Assembly (NCBI GenBank): GCA_018434685.1
Contig: JAHDOV010000013.1
Location: 186,001-250,000 of the forward strand
DNA length: 64,000 bases
Origin: Deltaproteobacteria bacterium
GTDB taxonomy: Bacteria; Desulfobacterota; Desulfomonilia; UBA1062
Reading direction: 5' to 3'
The notes beneath the pieces are model-generated. The model saw nothing but the letters and a program-made list of their open reading frames with translations, searched no databases and was not told where the DNA came from. This document shows positions 9,602 to 35,243 of this stretch, one piece after another (position 1 is the stretch's first letter; the number at the start of each line of letters is the position of its first letter). A program made the translations under genes and the position numbers.

Positions 9602-12097
9602 ATGCCGCACACCACCCTCGATGATCTGCAGAAACGCATCAGAGAACTCGAGCAGGACAACAGGATCCTCTCTCATGACATAACGGCCCACAAACAGATC
9701 GAGGATCTTCTCCGTTTCCAGAGGGATCTCGGCATCTACCTGAGCACCTCGAGAGACCTCCAGCAGACCTTGACCCATGTCCTGGAAAGCATCTGCGGTA
9801 TCGAGGGCATCGACGCCGCAGGCATATACCTCATCGACGATTTCACCGGGTGCATGGACCTCGCCGCTCATAAAGGTTTCAGCAGCGAACTCGCCGGGCA
9901 GCTTTCCCACTATGAAGCCGGTTCGCCCCAGGTCAGAGAAGTCATGGAGGGGACACCTGTCTACCGCGACTGTTCCGACACAGTGACCCACACCGGGGAT
10001 CCGGCTCGCCGGTTCGAGTTCAAGGCAATGGCAATCATCCCCATCAGGTCCGAGGACAGGACCATCGGCTCGCTGTTCCTAGTTTCCTTCAGCCTCGATG
10101 CTGTTCAGATCAACGTCCGCATAGCCCTCGAGACCATCACGGCCCGCATGGGCGGGGTAATCGTCCGCATCAAGGCCGAAGACACGCTCAAGAGATACGA
10201 ACTCATCCTGTCCACAGTGCATGACTTCATATCGTTTATCGATACCGGCTACATCTACCGTGCAGTGAATAAAACATACCTCCTGGCCTTTCAGAAACCT
10301 CGCGAGGAGATCATCGGCAAGAGCGTTGCCGATCTCTTCGGGGAAGAGGTCTTCAGGAACAGGATACAGAAACAGATCGACTCTGCCCTGGGGGGAAAAG
10401 AGACCCACTATGAAGAGCGTTTTGATTATCCTGCGTGGCCGGGGCGCTGGATGAGCCTGAGCTACTACCCCTACCGCGAGAAGGACGGCTCCATAAGCGG
10501 GATAGCCGTTATTGCCCGGGACATAACCGAGAGGAAGAAAGCGGAGAAAAGGCTCATGGAGAGCGAAGTGCAATACCGGCATCTCTTCGAATATGCCAAC
10601 GATGCCATCCTCATAATCAAAGACCTGCTTATCGTTGACTGCAACAGGAAGAGCATGGAGACCTTCGGGTGCACAAGAGAGGACATGATCAGCCGGCATC
10701 TGGCCGGATTCCTGCCCCTGCTCCAGCCTGACGGGGAAAAGTCCCTGGACAGGTGGGCAAGGCTGCAGCAGAGGGTCCTCTACGATAAGCCACAGATATT
10801 CGAATGGGTTTTTCAGCGCTGCCCTGGGGAAGTATTTGATGCAGAAGTGGGCATCAACCATATAGAACTCAAAGGCCAGCATTATATCCAGGCAATTATC
10901 CGCGACATCACCCAGCGCAAGCGCAGGGAGGAAGAACACATCAAGGTCAGCAAGCTCGAGTCCATCGGCATTCTTGCCGGGGGGATCGCCCATGATTTCA
11001 ACAATATTCTCGCGACGATCCTGGGCAATATCGAACTCGCCCAGACCTTCGTCCAGGACCGGGACAAGCCCTATACCAGGTTGTCCAGGGCCATAGAGGC
11101 CTGTAACCGGGCGAGAGACCTCACGATGCATTTCCTCACGCTGTCCAAGGGAGGCACCCCGCTCAAGAAAACCGGGCCCATCACTCCTCTGATCAGAGAA
11201 TCGACCGGCCTTGCCCTGTCCGGATCGAATATCAGGTGCGAGATCACCCTGCCGGATGACCTCTGGCTGGTCGAGTTCGACGAGAGCCAGCTCCTCCATG
11301 CTATCGACAATATCCTGGTGAATGCCCGGGAGGCCATGCCGAAAGGCGGAACCATCACCATATCCGCCGAGAACATCGTCCATCAGTCCGGCACCTTCAT
11401 TGCGGGCGCTGCCGTACCGGAAGGTCGCTATCTTCGAATAGCCATAACCGATTCGGGCCCGGGAATCCCGGAAGACATCCGGACAAAGATATTCGACCCT
11501 TACTTCTCGACAAAGGAGATGGGCGCACAAAAGGGCATGGGTTTAGGGCTCACCACCGCCTATTCCATCATCAAGAAACACGGCGGGTATCTCTTCATGG
11601 ATTCACAGCTGAACGTGGGCACAACGTTTTATATCCTGCTGCCTGCCATCAGGAAGAGCCCGGCCGAGCACGCCCCGGGCGAGGCAACCTTCTCTCCCGG
11701 CGGGAAAAGGATCCTCCTCATGGACGACGAGGAAATGATCCGGGATACGGTCTCGCATATGCTCCATGAGCTGGGTTATGACGTGGAAACCTCCCGCAAC
11801 GGCGAAGAGGCCGTGGAACGATACATTCTTGCGAGAAAGGCAGGGCTCGGTTTTGACGCAGTGATCCTCGATCTTACGGTCCGCGGCGGCATGGGCGGCG
11901 CGCACACCATGGAACAGCTGAAAAAAATCGATCCGAAGGCAACGGGCATCATCTCAAGCGGGTATTCGGATGATACGGTCATGATCAATTTCGAGAAGTA
12001 CGGCTTCAGCGCAGTCATGGTGAAACCCTTCAGCATGGCTGAACTGTCCGATACCCTGCAGAAGATATTGACTCCCCGGATAAGGATCGGGGAGTGA
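9602..12097 (+). CDS. Hybrid sensor histidine kinase: GAF-PAS-PAS-HisKA-HATPase-REC
   Basis: An 831-residue, soluble-looking sensor kinase. In order: a short coiled coil (1-40), a GAF domain (about 45-190), two PAS domains (about 195-315 and 325-440, each ending in a PAC-like ITERKK or ITQRKR), the HisKA H-box GGIAHDFNNILATILGN with the phosphoacceptor His near residue 460, the HATPase N-box NARE and G-boxes DSGPGIPED and GMGLGLTTA, then a C-terminal receiver (about 705-831) with the Asp in VILDLTVRG and the Lys in VKPFS. No membrane segment is visible, so a cytoplasmic signal is likely. The ATG at 9602 follows AGGAG. The final phosphotransfer partner is not nearby. Confidence 0.92.
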   Translation: MPHTTLDDLQKRIRELEQDNRILSHDITAHKQIEDLLRFQRDLGIYLSTSRDLQQTLTHVLESICGIEGIDAAGIYLIDDFTGCMDLAAHKGFSSELAGQLSHYEAGSPQVREVMEGTPVYRDCSDTVTHTGDPARRFEFKAMAIIPIRSEDRTIGSLFLVSFSLDAVQINVRIALETITARMGGVIVRIKAEDTLKRYELILSTVHDFISFIDTGYIYRAVNKTYLLAFQKPREEIIGKSVADLFGEEVFRNRIQKQIDSALGGKETHYEERFDYPAWPGRWMSLSYYPYREKDGSISGIAVIARDITERKKAEKRLMESEVQYRHLFEYANDAILIIKDLLIVDCNRKSMETFGCTREDMISRHLAGFLPLLQPDGEKSLDRWARLQQRVLYDKPQIFEWVFQRCPGEVFDAEVGINHIELKGQHYIQAIIRDITQRKRREEEHIKVSKLESIGILAGGIAHDFNNILATILGNIELAQTFVQDRDKPYTRLSRAIEACNRARDLTMHFLTLSKGGTPLKKTGPITPLIRESTGLALSGSNIRCEITLPDDLWLVEFDESQLLHAIDNILVNAREAMPKGGTITISAENIVHQSGTFIAGAAVPEGRYLRIAITDSGPGIPEDIRTKIFDPYFSTKEMGAQKGMGLGLTTAYSIIKKHGGYLFMDSQLNVGTTFYILLPAIRKSPAEHAPGEATFSPGGKRILLMDDEEMIRDTVSHMLHELGYDVETSRNGEEAVERYILARKAGLGFDAVILDLTVRGGMGGAHTMEQLKKIDPKATGIISSGYSDDTVMINFEKYGFSAVMVKPFSMAELSDTLQKILTPRIRIGE

Positions 12098-12137
12098 ACC
12101 GGGTGAAGCCGCCCCTGCAGGCCGGCTATGAGGTAGG

Positions 12138-13085
12138 CTAAACCCTGTCCGAACAGCGCCTGGCGTCCCTATAGGACCGCACGAGGACGAAGAGCCACAC
12201 GGCTGCTGCTGCGGCCACGACCCGGGGGACGAGAATCCAGAACAGCGAGGCGCCTATGGCAACGAACAGGAGCGTATCTTCGATGAGCGAATGGCTTATC
12301 CCGAGCGACAGGTTCAGTCGAATCATTTCATCATGATCCATGTGGCCTGCCTTGGACTCGGCTATGATCACCCCGGACCCGTAGGCAAGCCCGAAGACAA
12401 TGCCTGCCATCCACATGAAGGCGCTCTTGACCGGCAGGGCGTTTATCCGGGTGAACGGGCGAAGCATGCTCACTACCGGGGTAAAGAGGCCGAAGTGCCT
12501 CATGAGGTCTATCATCATGGTCAGAGCCAGCACGATCAGGATCACCTTGAAGGTGAGCACGGATGTCTGGCCGAACCAGTTGCCCAGCATCTCCATGAAG
12601 GTCAGCGCCTGGTCCGGGACGATACTGCTGTGGGTCCACTGCTGAGCCTTCAGCGATTCCGGGAGCACAACGCTCAGGCAGAGCCCCATCGAAGCGGCAG
12701 CAGCGATACGGAAAGCCGTCATCTTCACTCCGGACACCCCTGTCTTGGACTGTACCGCAGACTCGACAATGAGATTGTGGCAGATCAGCATCATGACCGC
12801 GATGATATTGATGCTCCAGAGGTCGAGCGGCATGGTCCCCATCACTGCGATACCGGCGTAGATATTTATGAGAGCCCCCACGATCAGGGCCATCGACGCC
12901 TCGGGAGGGAGGGAGAACACCGCCATGACCGGCGCCAGTATCCAGTTGAGATGCTCGAGCAGGCCCGTAAACTGCAGCATGGTCATGCCGAAAGAGACAG
13001 GGACCATGATAATCAGGATTGACCAGGCAGCCCCCAGACCCTTCCTGCAGGAACCGGCGGCAACCCTCATTAATTCTTGAGCCAT
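12138..13085 (-). CDS. Nucleoside-recognition (Gate) domain membrane protein
   Basis: A 315-residue polytopic protein with about eight hydrophobic segments. GSCRKGLGAAWSILIIMVP and the later mirror region LTFKVILIVLALTMMIDLMRHFG are typical of the two Gate-domain halves found in SpmA/SpmB/YjiH and nucleoside-recognition proteins. HNLIVESAVQSKTG and HSLIEDTLLFVAIGA are the conserved polar segments in mid-membrane. The family is named for similarity to nucleoside transporters, but its substrates are mostly unknown. It is isolated, converging with the kinase gene (40 bases apart). Confidence 0.82.
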   Translation of the reverse strand: MAQELMRVAAGSCRKGLGAAWSILIIMVPVSFGMTMLQFTGLLEHLNWILAPVMAVFSLPPEASMALIVGALINIYAGIAVMGTMPLDLWSINIIAVMMLICHNLIVESAVQSKTGVSGVKMTAFRIAAAASMGLCLSVVLPESLKAQQWTHSSIVPDQALTFMEMLGNWFGQTSVLTFKVILIVLALTMMIDLMRHFGLFTPVVSMLRPFTRINALPVKSAFMWMAGIVFGLAYGSGVIIAESKAGHMDHDEMIRLNLSLGISHSLIEDTLLFVAIGASLFWILVPRVVAAAAAVWLFVLVRSYRDARRCSDRV

Positions 13086-19141: not shown

Positions 19142-19570
19142 TCAGCTTTCCAGCTTCTCCTTGATATTGATCAGGTCCTGCTCGGCCTCGCGCTCGTTAT
19201 GTCTGAGAAGGACTTTTTCGGCCAGTCTGCCGAGAACCGGTACCGGGATGCTGTAATCGATATCCAGGTTCATGGTCGTGGCATCTCCGTGAGGATCGAA
19301 CGAGTACGTCCAGGTGCTTTCGATTCCCCCCTTGGTCCTGTCCACTATCTTTTTTGCCTGGATGTCCTCGACCCGTTCGGCTTCACCGTGAAAGTGCAGC
19401 CCCGCCATCTTATAGGTCCAGTTATAATGGGCTCCGGCGCCAGACCCTTTCACATCGTTGACGTCAACCAGACTCGTCATCCATTCCGGCTCGTTTTTCG
19501 GATCTTCTACGTAGGAAAAAACCTTCTTGACCGGGGCATTGATATCAATGCTCTTGTGTATTCTGGGCAT
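19142..19570 (-). CDS. SRPBCC-family (START/polyketide cyclase-like) protein
   Basis: A 142-residue protein that starts with the usual SRPBCC strand pattern: IHKSIDINAPVKKVFSYVEDPKNEPEWM, where the 'INAP...VF.Y..DP...PEW' signature is typical of polyketide-cyclase/CoxG-like proteins. The rest alternates strands and ends in a long helix (PVLGRLAEKVLLRHNEREAEQDLINIKEKLE). Such proteins bind hydrophobic ligands; the ligand here is unknown. GAAAGGAGGGTAAAG before 19570 fixes the start. No operon partner is obvious. Confidence 0.85.
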   Translation of the reverse strand: MPRIHKSIDINAPVKKVFSYVEDPKNEPEWMTSLVDVNDVKGSGAGAHYNWTYKMAGLHFHGEAERVEDIQAKKIVDRTKGGIESTWTYSFDPHGDATTMNLDIDYSIPVPVLGRLAEKVLLRHNEREAEQDLINIKEKLES

Positions 19571-19903
19571 CTTTACCCTCCTTTCTTTCAGCAACCCTCT
19601 GTTATCCTTATCTTTATTCGGATCTGAAACGATTTCCTCCCCGATATGCTCACCTCCCTTCGTGATATCCCTCAGGATCACAATCCAACATCCCGGCAGT
19701 CGTTCTCCGGCGAGGTGGAAATCATCAGGGGCAGCTGCCGGCTCATCGAACGAAAGAACTGAGATGCAGCACGTTCACAAGGCTACTCCCCCGGACAGAC
19801 CGTGCTCCCACGATGTGGAGGAGATCTCCGGGCTCGCAAAAAAACCGAAGATCTCACCGGGATGCTCACCATCACCAATCGTGCACAGATGTGCGAGAAT
19901 CCT

Positions 19904-26246: not shown

Positions 26247-27524
26247 TCAGCGGGACAGGAGGTTGGGGATATTATCCGCTCCGGACCCGATGAATTTCAC
26301 TGCGACACCGCTTTCGGTCTTTCTCAGCACCTTCCCCCTCACCAGGGGGAGACCCACGCCGGGTTTATCGGCAAAGCTTGCCGTCACGAACACCCCCTTT
26401 CTCAGGGGCTGATCGGTCTCCATGAACAACCCACCCCTGCTGATGTCCCTGAGCTGTCCGACCTGGTAGTCCATGTTCTGTGGCTGCAGGGTGATGGGGC
26501 GTGCCGTCTTGAAGCGGCTGAATTTCCTCCGCTTGTACGGGTGTTCCTCTTCCCGGGGAGGGTGAATCTCGTCTTCGAGTGCATTCCTCAGCGGGGTGTA
26601 GATGATCCCCAGGGCGCGTTCCGCCCTGCTCCCGTCGACAAGAACATTCTCCGACATGGTCTTTGCGCCATCCGTGGACAACCCCCACAGCGGCGGTCTC
26701 CCGGTCAGGTTCGCCAGCATGGTGAGGAAAAAGGCATTGGCCCGGCTCAGCCAGTCGGGGAACGTGAGCCTGGGCATGTCGATCCTGGAAATCTCGCCGA
26801 TCATCGCGTTGAATTCCCTCATCGAAAGATGGCCCTTGCTGACGATATACTGCGCCCCGACATTGTCCTTGTTCTCTGCAGCGTTGACAATGGCCTCTAC
26901 GACGTCCTTGACGTGCACAAACGACATATTGGTGCTGTTGAATGCCGTTGCCGGGAGTTTTCCATGGATGAGGCTCTGGACGTACTGGCCGGAATACCCG
27001 GTATTCCCCGGTCCGATGACGGAAGAGGGATATATCACCACGAGGGGGAGGTCTGCCCTGGCAAACAGATTCCAGGCAATGAGATCTCCCTCATACTTGG
27101 TCTGGGCATACAGGCTGAAGCGTTCAGGCCCCACCGGGTCTTCCTCGGTTATGGGCCACTTGGGCGGCTTGCCCCAGATTGCCACGGTGCTCACGTGCAC
27201 AACCTTCTTTATGTCAGTTTCCAGGGCGCTTTCCATGACGTTACGGGTACCATCGACATTGACCTTCCGGTATATTCGCCTGTCTTTCTCCCAATAACTG
27301 TCAGCACTTGCCAGGTTCATCACCCAGTCGCAGCCGTCCATTCCCTCGAGCAATGAACGCCTGTCCGTAACATCCCCAAGGACAAGGGTCACCCCCAGCT
27401 TTTCCAGTTCCGCGACATTGCTTGTGGGCCTGACAAGGCAGAAGAGCTCATGCTCGGTCTGAACCAGACGCCTGACAAGGTGGGTTCCGATGAACCCCGT
27501 AGCACCGGTGATAAAGATCTTCAT
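26247..27524 (-). CDS. NAD-dependent epimerase/dehydratase fused to a C-terminal PilZ domain
   Basis: A 425-residue fusion. Residues 1-320 are an extended short-chain dehydrogenase: GATGFIGTH (NAD-binding GxxGxxG), LVLGDVTDR, and the catalytic YAQTKYEGD (YxxxK) with PSSVIGPG downstream. This resembles 3-beta-hydroxysteroid dehydrogenase/dihydroflavonol reductase types. Residues about 330-425 form a PilZ domain: RRKFSRFKTARP (the RxxxR cyclic-di-GMP contact region) and LRDISRGGLFM (the D/NxSxxG motif). The joining stretch PPREEEHPYKR is hydrophilic. A redox enzyme responding to cyclic-di-GMP is implied, but its substrate is unknown. Confidence 0.88.
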   Translation of the reverse strand: MKIFITGATGFIGTHLVRRLVQTEHELFCLVRPTSNVAELEKLGVTLVLGDVTDRRSLLEGMDGCDWVMNLASADSYWEKDRRIYRKVNVDGTRNVMESALETDIKKVVHVSTVAIWGKPPKWPITEEDPVGPERFSLYAQTKYEGDLIAWNLFARADLPLVVIYPSSVIGPGNTGYSGQYVQSLIHGKLPATAFNSTNMSFVHVKDVVEAIVNAAENKDNVGAQYIVSKGHLSMREFNAMIGEISRIDMPRLTFPDWLSRANAFFLTMLANLTGRPPLWGLSTDGAKTMSENVLVDGSRAERALGIIYTPLRNALEDEIHPPREEEHPYKRRKFSRFKTARPITLQPQNMDYQVGQLRDISRGGLFMETDQPLRKGVFVTASFADKPGVGLPLVRGKVLRKTESGVAVKFIGSGADNIPNLLSR

Positions 27525-28033
27525 ATACCTTACCCCCCTGTATTATCTATGAATCATTAAGATTTGTGCTGCGGAATAGACTACAAACGGCAACCAGACA
27601 TTGCACAAAGGAGATTTCATCTAATTGTATCACATGCCCAAATGCAACAGCTCTTGTTAGACCTATAAGAATAAGTTGGACCTGATAAAAGTCAAGCAAG
27701 GAATGTTCAGGAGCACAGGAAGCCTGGCAGGCCGGAGGCAGCGGTTTCCCGAGGTTTGTATTATGCCTTGCGGTCCCCGTGGCGGGGTCATGCATGAAGC
27801 CACACCTGCAGAACAATATTTCAATGTGTCTCGGTGGGTTGCCTAGTTCTCTACGTTTCTGCCCAGCGCCTAGTGCCTCGGGCCCAGCGCCTCTTAGATC
27901 ATGAGCCCCATGTCCTGTACTGCCTGAAATCTACAACGGACCTGCTATGGTCGCGGCTCAAAGCCGCTCCTACAGTGTTACCGGGCACAACCCGCAAAAA
28001 TTGCTGGTGCGCTGCGCACAATATCCACCCAGT
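27525..28033. other. Intergenic region with REP-like element
   Basis: No supported gene. A minus-strand open frame (27547-27816) has no family and no ribosome binding site. The interval contains the short repeat CCCAGCGCCT twice (near 27861 and 27882) and the REP-like palindrome annotated at 27949-27976. Confidence 0.5.
27949..27976 (-). repeat. REP-like extragenic palindrome
   Basis: Read on the minus strand the core is CTGTAGGAGCGGCTTTGAGC followed by CGCGACC: a conserved GTAGGAGCGGCTTT head and a GCGGCT/AGCCGC hairpin. This is the form of REP elements mobilised by RAYT transposases in gammaproteobacteria. A single copy is seen here and no RAYT gene is in the window. Confidence 0.55.
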
Positions 28034-33272: not shown

Positions 33273-35243
33273 CTATGAGAGCCGCCGCTGTACCTGCTGC
33301 CAGACCTCTTTCACATCCATGGGCTCAAAGCCGGGCTTGCCGAATCGTTCTCTCCCGAGTTCATAAATGGTCTCGTTGTACGGGGCCCTGACACCCGTCG
33401 TCCTGGCCAGTTCGAGGATATAGCCGGTCAGGGAATCCAGCTCCGAGTCTGTAGAGCCCCGCTGAATAATATCCTGGCTCATGCTCGACATGACCATCTT
33501 GGCCAGATTCCGCTTGAACATCGGTCTGGTCAGACCCCGGGGAAGCAGGGCACCGGCCTTCATAAGCAGCCAGGGCGGCATCCCGCCCAGCTTGCACTCC
33601 TTGTAGCCGGCAGCCCGTACAATCCGCACCCCCTCATACAGGGTTTTCGTCAGGAGCCTCTGGAACGTGTCGATATCGGATATGTCCCTGAACCCGTGTC
33701 CCACCAGGGTCGTCAGGGAGTTGGTGAGGTTCACCACGATCTTGGAGTGCACTGCGTCCTGGAGATGGTTTGTGATCACGGTTTCGACGCCCTTGCCGAA
33801 GATATCGGCAACCGCGTTCATCTCGGACAGCAGGGTGTTGTCAGGGGTTCCCAGAACGAGTGGCCCCCTTTTCTGATAGCCCACGGTGACCGGGGCATCC
33901 ATCCAGGCGTTGTAGCTGACAACACAGTAGATCACCCGGGAAAAGTATTTGGGCAGAATCGCCTGGTTATCGATGCCGTTGGCCATGGAGACAATGATCA
34001 CGTCATCTCTGGCATGGGCCTTGATCAGTTTGGCGACCGCCTCGAGGCTGTAGTTCTTCACCCCGACAACAATCACATCCATGGACCCCAGCTCGGCCAG
34101 GTTCTCCACAACCCTGACAGGGACAGAGCTCATGGTCTCGGCCTTTTGTCCTCCCTGATAGAGGCTTATGCCGGTTGTCTTCAAGGCATCGAGGACCGCC
34201 CCCTGATCGATGAACCAGGTCTGTTCATGGAAGGGGGCCACCCATCCCCCCACAGAGGCCCCTATGGCACCGGCACCGAAAAAGGCGACCTTCAGGTCAT
34301 TGCCTGACAATTTCATGCTGGCCTCATCCTCCAGGGCATAGTCGCTCACCGGGAGGCTTCCGGCCCAGTCGGGCATCTGAGTGTTGGGCAGATCAAAGCA
34401 CGATGACATGTGTTCGGCGTAGCGTGTCTGGAAGGGCATTTCTTCTATCTCGAGCCGTTTCAGCAGCGGGGCGAACGAGGTGTCTCCCAGCTCGAGAGAG
34501 GCACGTTCGGGCTTCACATCTTTTTTCAGCAGGAGCTCCATGTTCTTTTTCACCCTGAAGGCTGCCCTGAAATCTGTCCGGCTCTGGCAGAGCTTCCCTC
34601 CCAGCTGCGAATACAGGTACGACGAGACATCGAAATCGGTAGGTTTTCCCTGCATGGGGATACGAAGCGAGAGGTATGCGTTCCCATCACCGTCCATGGC
34701 CTTTACAACACAGTCACCCCCCTCACGATAGATGTCGATGTCCTGGGTCACCTTGGGCAGGCCCCAGATTCTGCGGCCCCTTATGGTGTTTTCCTTCGAG
34801 GTCACCGGCATGCCCGCGATGTAATATCCGAACCGGCTGAACTTATCGATGATCATCGGCAGGACAGGGACATTGAAGCCGGGATCGACCATCACCGGGA
34901 TGGCAATGGCGATCTCGTTGTATGGCCTCACGCCCATGACCTTCTTGTATTCATAACAGGAAAAGGCCACCAGCGCACGGCCCCTGGTCATCCTCACCGG
35001 CACGATCCGGGGACTCAGCTGTTCGGCCAGCAGGGCAGCAGCCTTGTCATAGGAGCACAGGAATACGGCCATGGCGCACGTGACATCCCCGTAAAAGGTC
35101 GGGAACAGATAATCCTTTCTCACGTGCTCGTTTATCCTGAGCGGTTGCGATGCCGTATGAAGAATAAAGCGCCGGTAGAAATCATTGTCAAACTCACCGG
35201 CATTATCGAGCAGTTCCTCTGGAATATCCCATGTTGCCTTCAT
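33273..35243 (-). CDS. Fusion of acetoacetate-decarboxylase-like and ketopantoate-reductase-like domains
   Basis: A 656-residue fusion. The N-terminal 270 residues resemble acetoacetate decarboxylase (ADC) proteins: GRALVAFSCYEYKKVMGVRPYNEIAIAIPV, YIAGMPVTSKENTIRGRRIWGLPKV and later barrel strands. Residues about 325-656 form a PanE/ApbA-type reductase with an N-terminal Rossmann motif VAFFGAGAIGASVG, VVGVKNYSLEAV and the C-terminal catalytic-Lys region HSKIVVNLTNSLTTLVG. ADC-like proteins act on beta-keto acids and PanE-like enzymes reduce 2-keto acids to hydroxy acids, so a two-step keto-acid conversion is possible. No pathway partners adjoin it. Only one start has the ADC N-terminus. Confidence 0.85.
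   Translation of the reverse strand: MKATWDIPEELLDNAGEFDNDFYRRFILHTASQPLRINEHVRKDYLFPTFYGDVTCAMAVFLCSYDKAAALLAEQLSPRIVPVRMTRGRALVAFSCYEYKKVMGVRPYNEIAIAIPVMVDPGFNVPVLPMIIDKFSRFGYYIAGMPVTSKENTIRGRRIWGLPKVTQDIDIYREGGDCVVKAMDGDGNAYLSLRIPMQGKPTDFDVSSYLYSQLGGKLCQSRTDFRAAFRVKKNMELLLKKDVKPERASLELGDTSFAPLLKRLEIEEMPFQTRYAEHMSSCFDLPNTQMPDWAGSLPVSDYALEDEASMKLSGNDLKVAFFGAGAIGASVGGWVAPFHEQTWFIDQGAVLDALKTTGISLYQGGQKAETMSSVPVRVVENLAELGSMDVIVVGVKNYSLEAVAKLIKAHARDDVIIVSMANGIDNQAILPKYFSRVIYCVVSYNAWMDAPVTVGYQKRGPLVLGTPDNTLLSEMNAVADIFGKGVETVITNHLQDAVHSKIVVNLTNSLTTLVGHGFRDISDIDTFQRLLTKTLYEGVRIVRAAGYKECKLGGMPPWLLMKAGALLPRGLTRPMFKRNLAKMVMSSMSQDIIQRGSTDSELDSLTGYILELARTTGVRAPYNETIYELGRERFGKPGFEPMDVKEVWQQVQRRLS

Follow-up and report, generated by a model that had tools for sequence, protein, structure and literature searches.

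A PilZ domain joined to an extended SDR enzyme, with predicted c-di-GMP control, in one bacterial family

The window, a 64,000-nucleotide stretch of DNA from an uncultured, anaerobic Deltaproteobacteria bacterium, carries a minus-strand gene (26247-27524) that encodes an extended SDR and a PilZ domain in a single uninterrupted frame of 425 amino acids, with an ATG start and with the stop codon counted in the coordinates. We propose that the product is an NADP(H)-linked extended SDR, a reductase or dehydrogenase, whose activity is set directly by c-di-GMP, and we give this reading, in which both ligand binding and its coupling to catalysis are predicted, a probability of about 0.6. Ten such genes were found in the host bacterial family, and sequence comparison indicates that the fusion is real and old.

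The fused gene and its two parts

A purine-rich run, GGGGGG (27533-27538), lies just upstream of the ATG. Residues 1-321 (26562-27524, minus strand) form the extended SDR part, with a Rossmann NAD(P)-binding fold and a substrate lobe according to Pfam and AlphaFold. Pfam matched residues 3-224 to Epimerase (PF01370; 131.7 bits, cut-off 20.9, E 3.7e-38), and both the dinucleotide-binding motif GATGFIG (residues 7-13, 27486-27506, minus) and the YAQTK motif with catalytic Tyr139 and Lys143 (residues 139-143, 27096-27110, minus) were found in the sequence. The SDR has the glycine motif TGxxGFIG and a Ser112, Tyr139, Lys143 active site, in agreement with the first-pass annotation, which had described an intact extended SDR.

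The PilZ domain spans residues 332-413 (26286-26531, minus; PF07238, 38.3 bits, cut-off 22.5, E 1.8e-9) and was also found in a genome-wide search. It carries all five canonical c-di-GMP motif positions: R333 and R337 of RxxxR (RKFSR, residues 333-337, 26514-26528, minus), which is located in the short linker between SDR and PilZ, and D360, S362 and G365 of DxSxxG (DISRGG, residues 360-365, 26430-26447, minus). The RRKFSR and DISRGG motifs noticed at first reading therefore hold, and with these motifs c-di-GMP binding by the SDR-PilZ protein is likely.

Enzyme type and cofactor

The enzyme had been assigned to the steroid-dehydrogenase/flavonol-reductase type, and this is partly right: 3Beta_HSD (PF01073) matches with 85.5 bits (cut-off 22), overlapping the stronger Epimerase match in Pfam, but the best curated NCBIfam model is HpnA (TIGR03466) and the nearest structure is Gox2253. 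The HpnA model, a hopanoid-associated sugar epimerase, covers nearly the whole SDR part but has no PilZ domain; membership in HpnA was rejected, the score of 207.3 bits falling below the cut-off of 367.65. Gox2253 (3wj7) is the nearest solved structure by both sequence and fold, at 28% identity and as top PDB fold match of the SDR part (E 2.6e-28, TMt 0.83), and its chain of 342 residues, unlike the window protein, has no PilZ. The structure matches that follow 3wj7 are UDP-sugar epimerases and cinnamoyl-CoA reductases. With HpnA below its cut-off and with Gox2253, epimerases and cinnamoyl-CoA reductases as structural neighbours, these matches do not single out a substrate.

In the AlphaFold model of the full protein (34 sequences), SDR residues 1-320 have block pLDDT values of 86-99, which together with the 3wj7 match support the Rossmann fold. 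Arg32 ends strand 2 of the SDR with no acidic residue there, and from this we infer that the cofactor would be NADP(H) rather than NAD(H).

The PilZ part and proposed control by c-di-GMP

The full AlphaFold model gives the PilZ part six strands and the last helix at low pLDDT (38-69 by block), and a model of the isolated PilZ domain is likewise of low confidence (mean pLDDT 64.7). A Foldseek search with this isolated, low-confidence model placed PilZ structures at ranks 1-4, with a best E of 0.015, and one of these four, 3dsg, is titled as trivial in c-di-GMP binding. No PilZ chain was significant in a PDB sequence search (best PilZ E 0.35). Given a low-confidence model and an E no better than 0.015, the PilZ assignment therefore rests on the Pfam score and the motifs.

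In all six pairs of fusions with dS below 0.5 in both domains, which lie within the other genus that holds the fusion, dN/dS is 0.13-0.23 for the SDR part and 0.13-0.31 for the PilZ part. These values show purifying selection on the PilZ part like that on the SDR part, as measured in that sister genus. Deep pairs, whose dS is saturated, were set aside, and the PilZ dN/dS of 1.02 between the window copy and that of genome G015 is uninformative, not supportive.

Direct c-di-GMP control of the SDR is the most likely reading of these sequences. The ligand would bind the RxxxR segment of the linker and the DxSxxG turn, and binding would order the RxxxR segment and swing the PilZ barrel against the C-terminal helix, the substrate lobe or the dimer interface of the SDR. 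This movement could open or close the SDR active site, on the model of cellulose synthase BcsA. That c-di-GMP is coupled to catalysis we infer from RxxxR lying in the linker.

It is also conceivable, if unlikely, that PilZ serves here for docking or localisation, as the PilZ adaptor of type IV pili does, taking the SDR to the membrane or to a binding partner, and that c-di-GMP affects at most where the enzyme is. PilZ adaptors that work without a ligand exist, according to the part of PMC7288161 consulted. Non-binding PilZ proteins are among the top fold matches of the isolated PilZ model, and in the host family PilZ is joined to unlike enzymes, as a generic tag would be. Adaptor PilZ domains generally have no c-di-GMP ligand motifs, however, and R333, R337, D/N360, S362 and G365 are kept in all ten fusions. 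A search of the SDR for residues peculiar to the fused clade, and hence for a docking face, yielded only positions 296 and 319, too few to define one.

Somewhat less probable again is an SDR part that is mainly NADP(H)-sensing or structural, so that the fusion would integrate redox state and c-di-GMP. In one fusion (G017, also recovered as locus L040) the catalytic Tyr139 is replaced by Leu in an otherwise intact fusion, and this protein may be inactive or work otherwise; structural relatives of extended SDRs exist as well, the 39-kDa subunit of complex I being among the sequence matches. The other nine fusions nevertheless have Tyr139, as does every one of the 33 unfused rows in the alignment, while Ser112 and Lys143 are found in 10/10 fusions, in which T6, G7, T9, G10, F11, I12 and G13 are also invariant.

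Spread and origin of the fusion

Full-length SDR-PilZ genes are present in 9 of the 24 genomes of the host family: two copies in the window genome (G000), one in a second genome of the same genus (G001) and one in each of seven genomes of one other genus (G005, G012, G015, G017, G019, G021 and G023). With the same architecture in ten genes, each one continuous frame, nothing speaks for a frameshift, a misassembly or two overlapping genes, and we reject such an artefact, or a fusion found only here, as practically inconceivable; the fusion is genuine, as the first-pass annotation had supposed.

Beyond the family, 395 genomes were drawn evenly from the phylum, with at most 4 candidates scored per genome in the results considered; six of these had a match at E up to 1e-60, namely five fused members of the host family and one unfused genome (G237). 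An alignment scan of named genomes, covering the best 80 loci among 522 relatives, gave one locus of the 80 that extends into the PilZ part: L040, from Syntrophaceae bacterium UBA6087, which the NCBI taxonomy places in the phylum Thermodesulfobacteriota. Outside the host family the sets searched, these best 80 loci included, yielded no fused homologue. A first contig scan with a single protein as query gave no matches. The homologue searches followed the window SDR, and an independent PilZ fusion of another SDR would escape them.

Among 132 genomes of the phylum to which the Zixibacteria record belongs, 11 hold close relatives without the fusion; in the class of Longilinea, 8 of 396 genomes do so at E up to 1e-110 and 14 of 396 at 1e-60. 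This unfused Zixibacteria/Anaerolineae sister subfamily has the same SDR motifs as the window protein and is 42-51% identical to its SDR part in L039 and L041 and up to 60% identical in others, but its members stop at or shortly past the SDR part, without a PilZ domain. A tail of PilZ length is absent from all 17 sister ORFs read to the C-terminus (L179-L187, L189-L196), a count that leaves out the partial matches L188 and G436.

In an SDR tree of 43 rows, which includes two identical pairs and from which four distant or long-branched rows of a first tree had been dropped, all ten fused rows fall into a single clade (support 97/97) nested in the unfused sisters. In that first tree, of 24 rows, L039 was placed next to the window copy, though weakly supported there (89/95), so that the fused rows did not make up a single clade. 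The window copy and that of G001 form one branch and the second copy of the window genome (G000:C49) groups with the other genus, so that the window genus holds both SDR-PilZ lineages. The 43-row tree shows, at the level of sequence, a fusion that arose once inside the unfused SDR subfamily and was then duplicated in the window genus. In a tree of PilZ parts the SDR-PilZ rows group together only at 76/82, and the single origin therefore rests on the SDR tree.

Other PilZ-tagged enzymes in the host family

The SDR is one of several enzymes joined to PilZ in this family. Three genes encode acetoacetate-decarboxylase-like (ADC-like) proteins with PilZ, two in G000 and one in G001. Only the first of the two G000 proteins, with which the second shares 38% identity over 372 amino acids, scores over the Pfam ADC cut-off (30.9 against 29.8). 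Downstream of one ADC-like-PilZ gene (L173, 9588-10727, plus), at 270 bp and in the same orientation, is a gene for a CHASE4-HAMP-GGDEF diguanylate cyclase (10998-12665, plus), which was not found after the other two ADC-like-PilZ genes in the stretches read. The window genome has 15 GGDEF and 15 PilZ matches, and with 15 GGDEF matches c-di-GMP is plausibly made there.

AMP-binding acyl-CoA synthetases with PilZ are encoded by four genes: two in G010, one in G020 and a contig-edge piece in G001, which shares its short contig with the SDR-PilZ gene of that genome. One of the G010 genes encodes a 941-residue protein composed of acyl-CoA synthetase, PilZ, SRPBCC and a further PilZ (L219, 13710-16532, plus) and adjoins the second. 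An SRPBCC protein of the same Pfam family (Polyketide_cyc2, 65.1 bits) is encoded in the window at 19145-19636 (minus). The G020 gene, read by eye from protein starts, lies amid synthetase, thiolase and enoyl-CoA hydratase genes, and G002 has a short, possibly deleted synthetase-PilZ gene, also read by eye. G005 encodes a protein with PilZ N-terminal to a methyltransferase-like part (L212, 802-2247, minus).

In the ADC-like and synthetase fusions the PilZ parts are 25-47% identical in the pairs compared, and the PilZ tree unites them (80/99) to the exclusion of the SDR modules, which suggests that one module was re-used across enzymes and that the SDR fusions acquired PilZ separately. The best reading of the window SDR-PilZ protein would be as one of several PilZ-tagged acyl-CoA-type enzymes of the host family.

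Gene neighbourhoods and possible substrate

The order metallo-beta-lactamase-fold (MBL) protein, SDR-PilZ, VOC protein and helicase is found in all eight main-lineage loci, namely that of the G000:C49 copy and the seven of the other genus. These neighbours are absent from both the window and the G001 copies, so the argument from context belongs to the paralogue lineage. At the G017 locus, the only one scanned, the VOC protein resembles methylmalonyl-CoA epimerase at 69.8 bits, below the cut-off of 114.95, and in G015, G017 and G023 the distance from SDR-PilZ to an unfused ADC-like gene is about 4-7 kb. The MBL-fold gene at L164 (5909-6655, plus) is upstream of SDR-PilZ, as are its counterparts in the other seven loci; its product, the only one of these scanned, has a sub-threshold match (29.8 bits, cut-off 50) to the cyclic-nucleotide hydrolase Apyc1.

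The window copy itself is flanked by genes for a metallophosphoesterase, a protein that by eye is of nitroreductase type (its NCBIfam matches are all below cut-off) and a Sel1-trypsin protein, and since the conserved neighbours are absent here the window itself points to no pathway. A second enzyme fusion within the window, at 33276-35243 (minus), encodes 655 residues with an acetoacetate-decarboxylase domain (PF06314, 64 bits) and a ketopantoate reductase (ApbA/ApbA_C). In eight stretches around unfused sisters, blastp at 1e-8 found none of the MBL, VOC, helicase, ADC and ACAD neighbours of the G017 locus, and the neighbours therefore do not identify the ancestral substrate.

Our guess, from the neighbours and the sister fusions, is that the substrate belongs to acyl-CoA/ketone (keto) metabolism, because PilZ is also fused to acyl-CoA synthetases and ADC-like proteins in the host family and because most SDR-PilZ genes adjoin a methylmalonyl-CoA-epimerase-like gene. 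A wider and rather doubtful extension is that c-di-GMP acts directly on carbon flux, with PilZ-tagged synthetase, ADC-like and SDR enzymes switched together by a lifestyle signal.

Comparison with known systems

The c-di-GMP effectors described in the portions of the literature consulted act mainly on motility, polysaccharide, secretion and gene expression. If the proposed control holds, c-di-GMP may switch metabolism directly in the anaerobes of the host family, and an oxidoreductase with a covalent PilZ domain and with unfused sisters as natural controls would allow a direct test of c-di-GMP allostery over metabolic flux.

Known PilZ effectors share with the window protein a PF07238 match over the cut-off and the RxxxR and D/NxSxxG motifs, and in BcsA the PilZ domain is C-terminal, as it is here. 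The partners named for PilZ in the parts of PMC12943098 and PMC7288161 consulted include BcsA, Alg44, YcgR, GGDEF, EAL and proteases, whereas here the partner is an extended SDR. PMC7288161, again in part, gives 221 Pfam PilZ architectures, a list that may hold an SDR-PilZ entry. In open-licence PMC papers we recognised no publication on SDR-PilZ, ADC-PilZ or acyl-CoA synthetase-PilZ. Publications have connected the E. coli SDR BdcA, which has none of the usual c-di-GMP motifs, with this ligand; once reported as a c-di-GMP binder, it showed no c-di-GMP binding when later examined by DSF and ITC, according to PMC4171110. Direct c-di-GMP control of such an enzyme had been called unusual at first reading, which is supported within the sets searched, the binding by BdcA not having been confirmed. 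PilZ effectors are thus already known in many architectures, and the extended SDR as a partner is a new variation among those searched.
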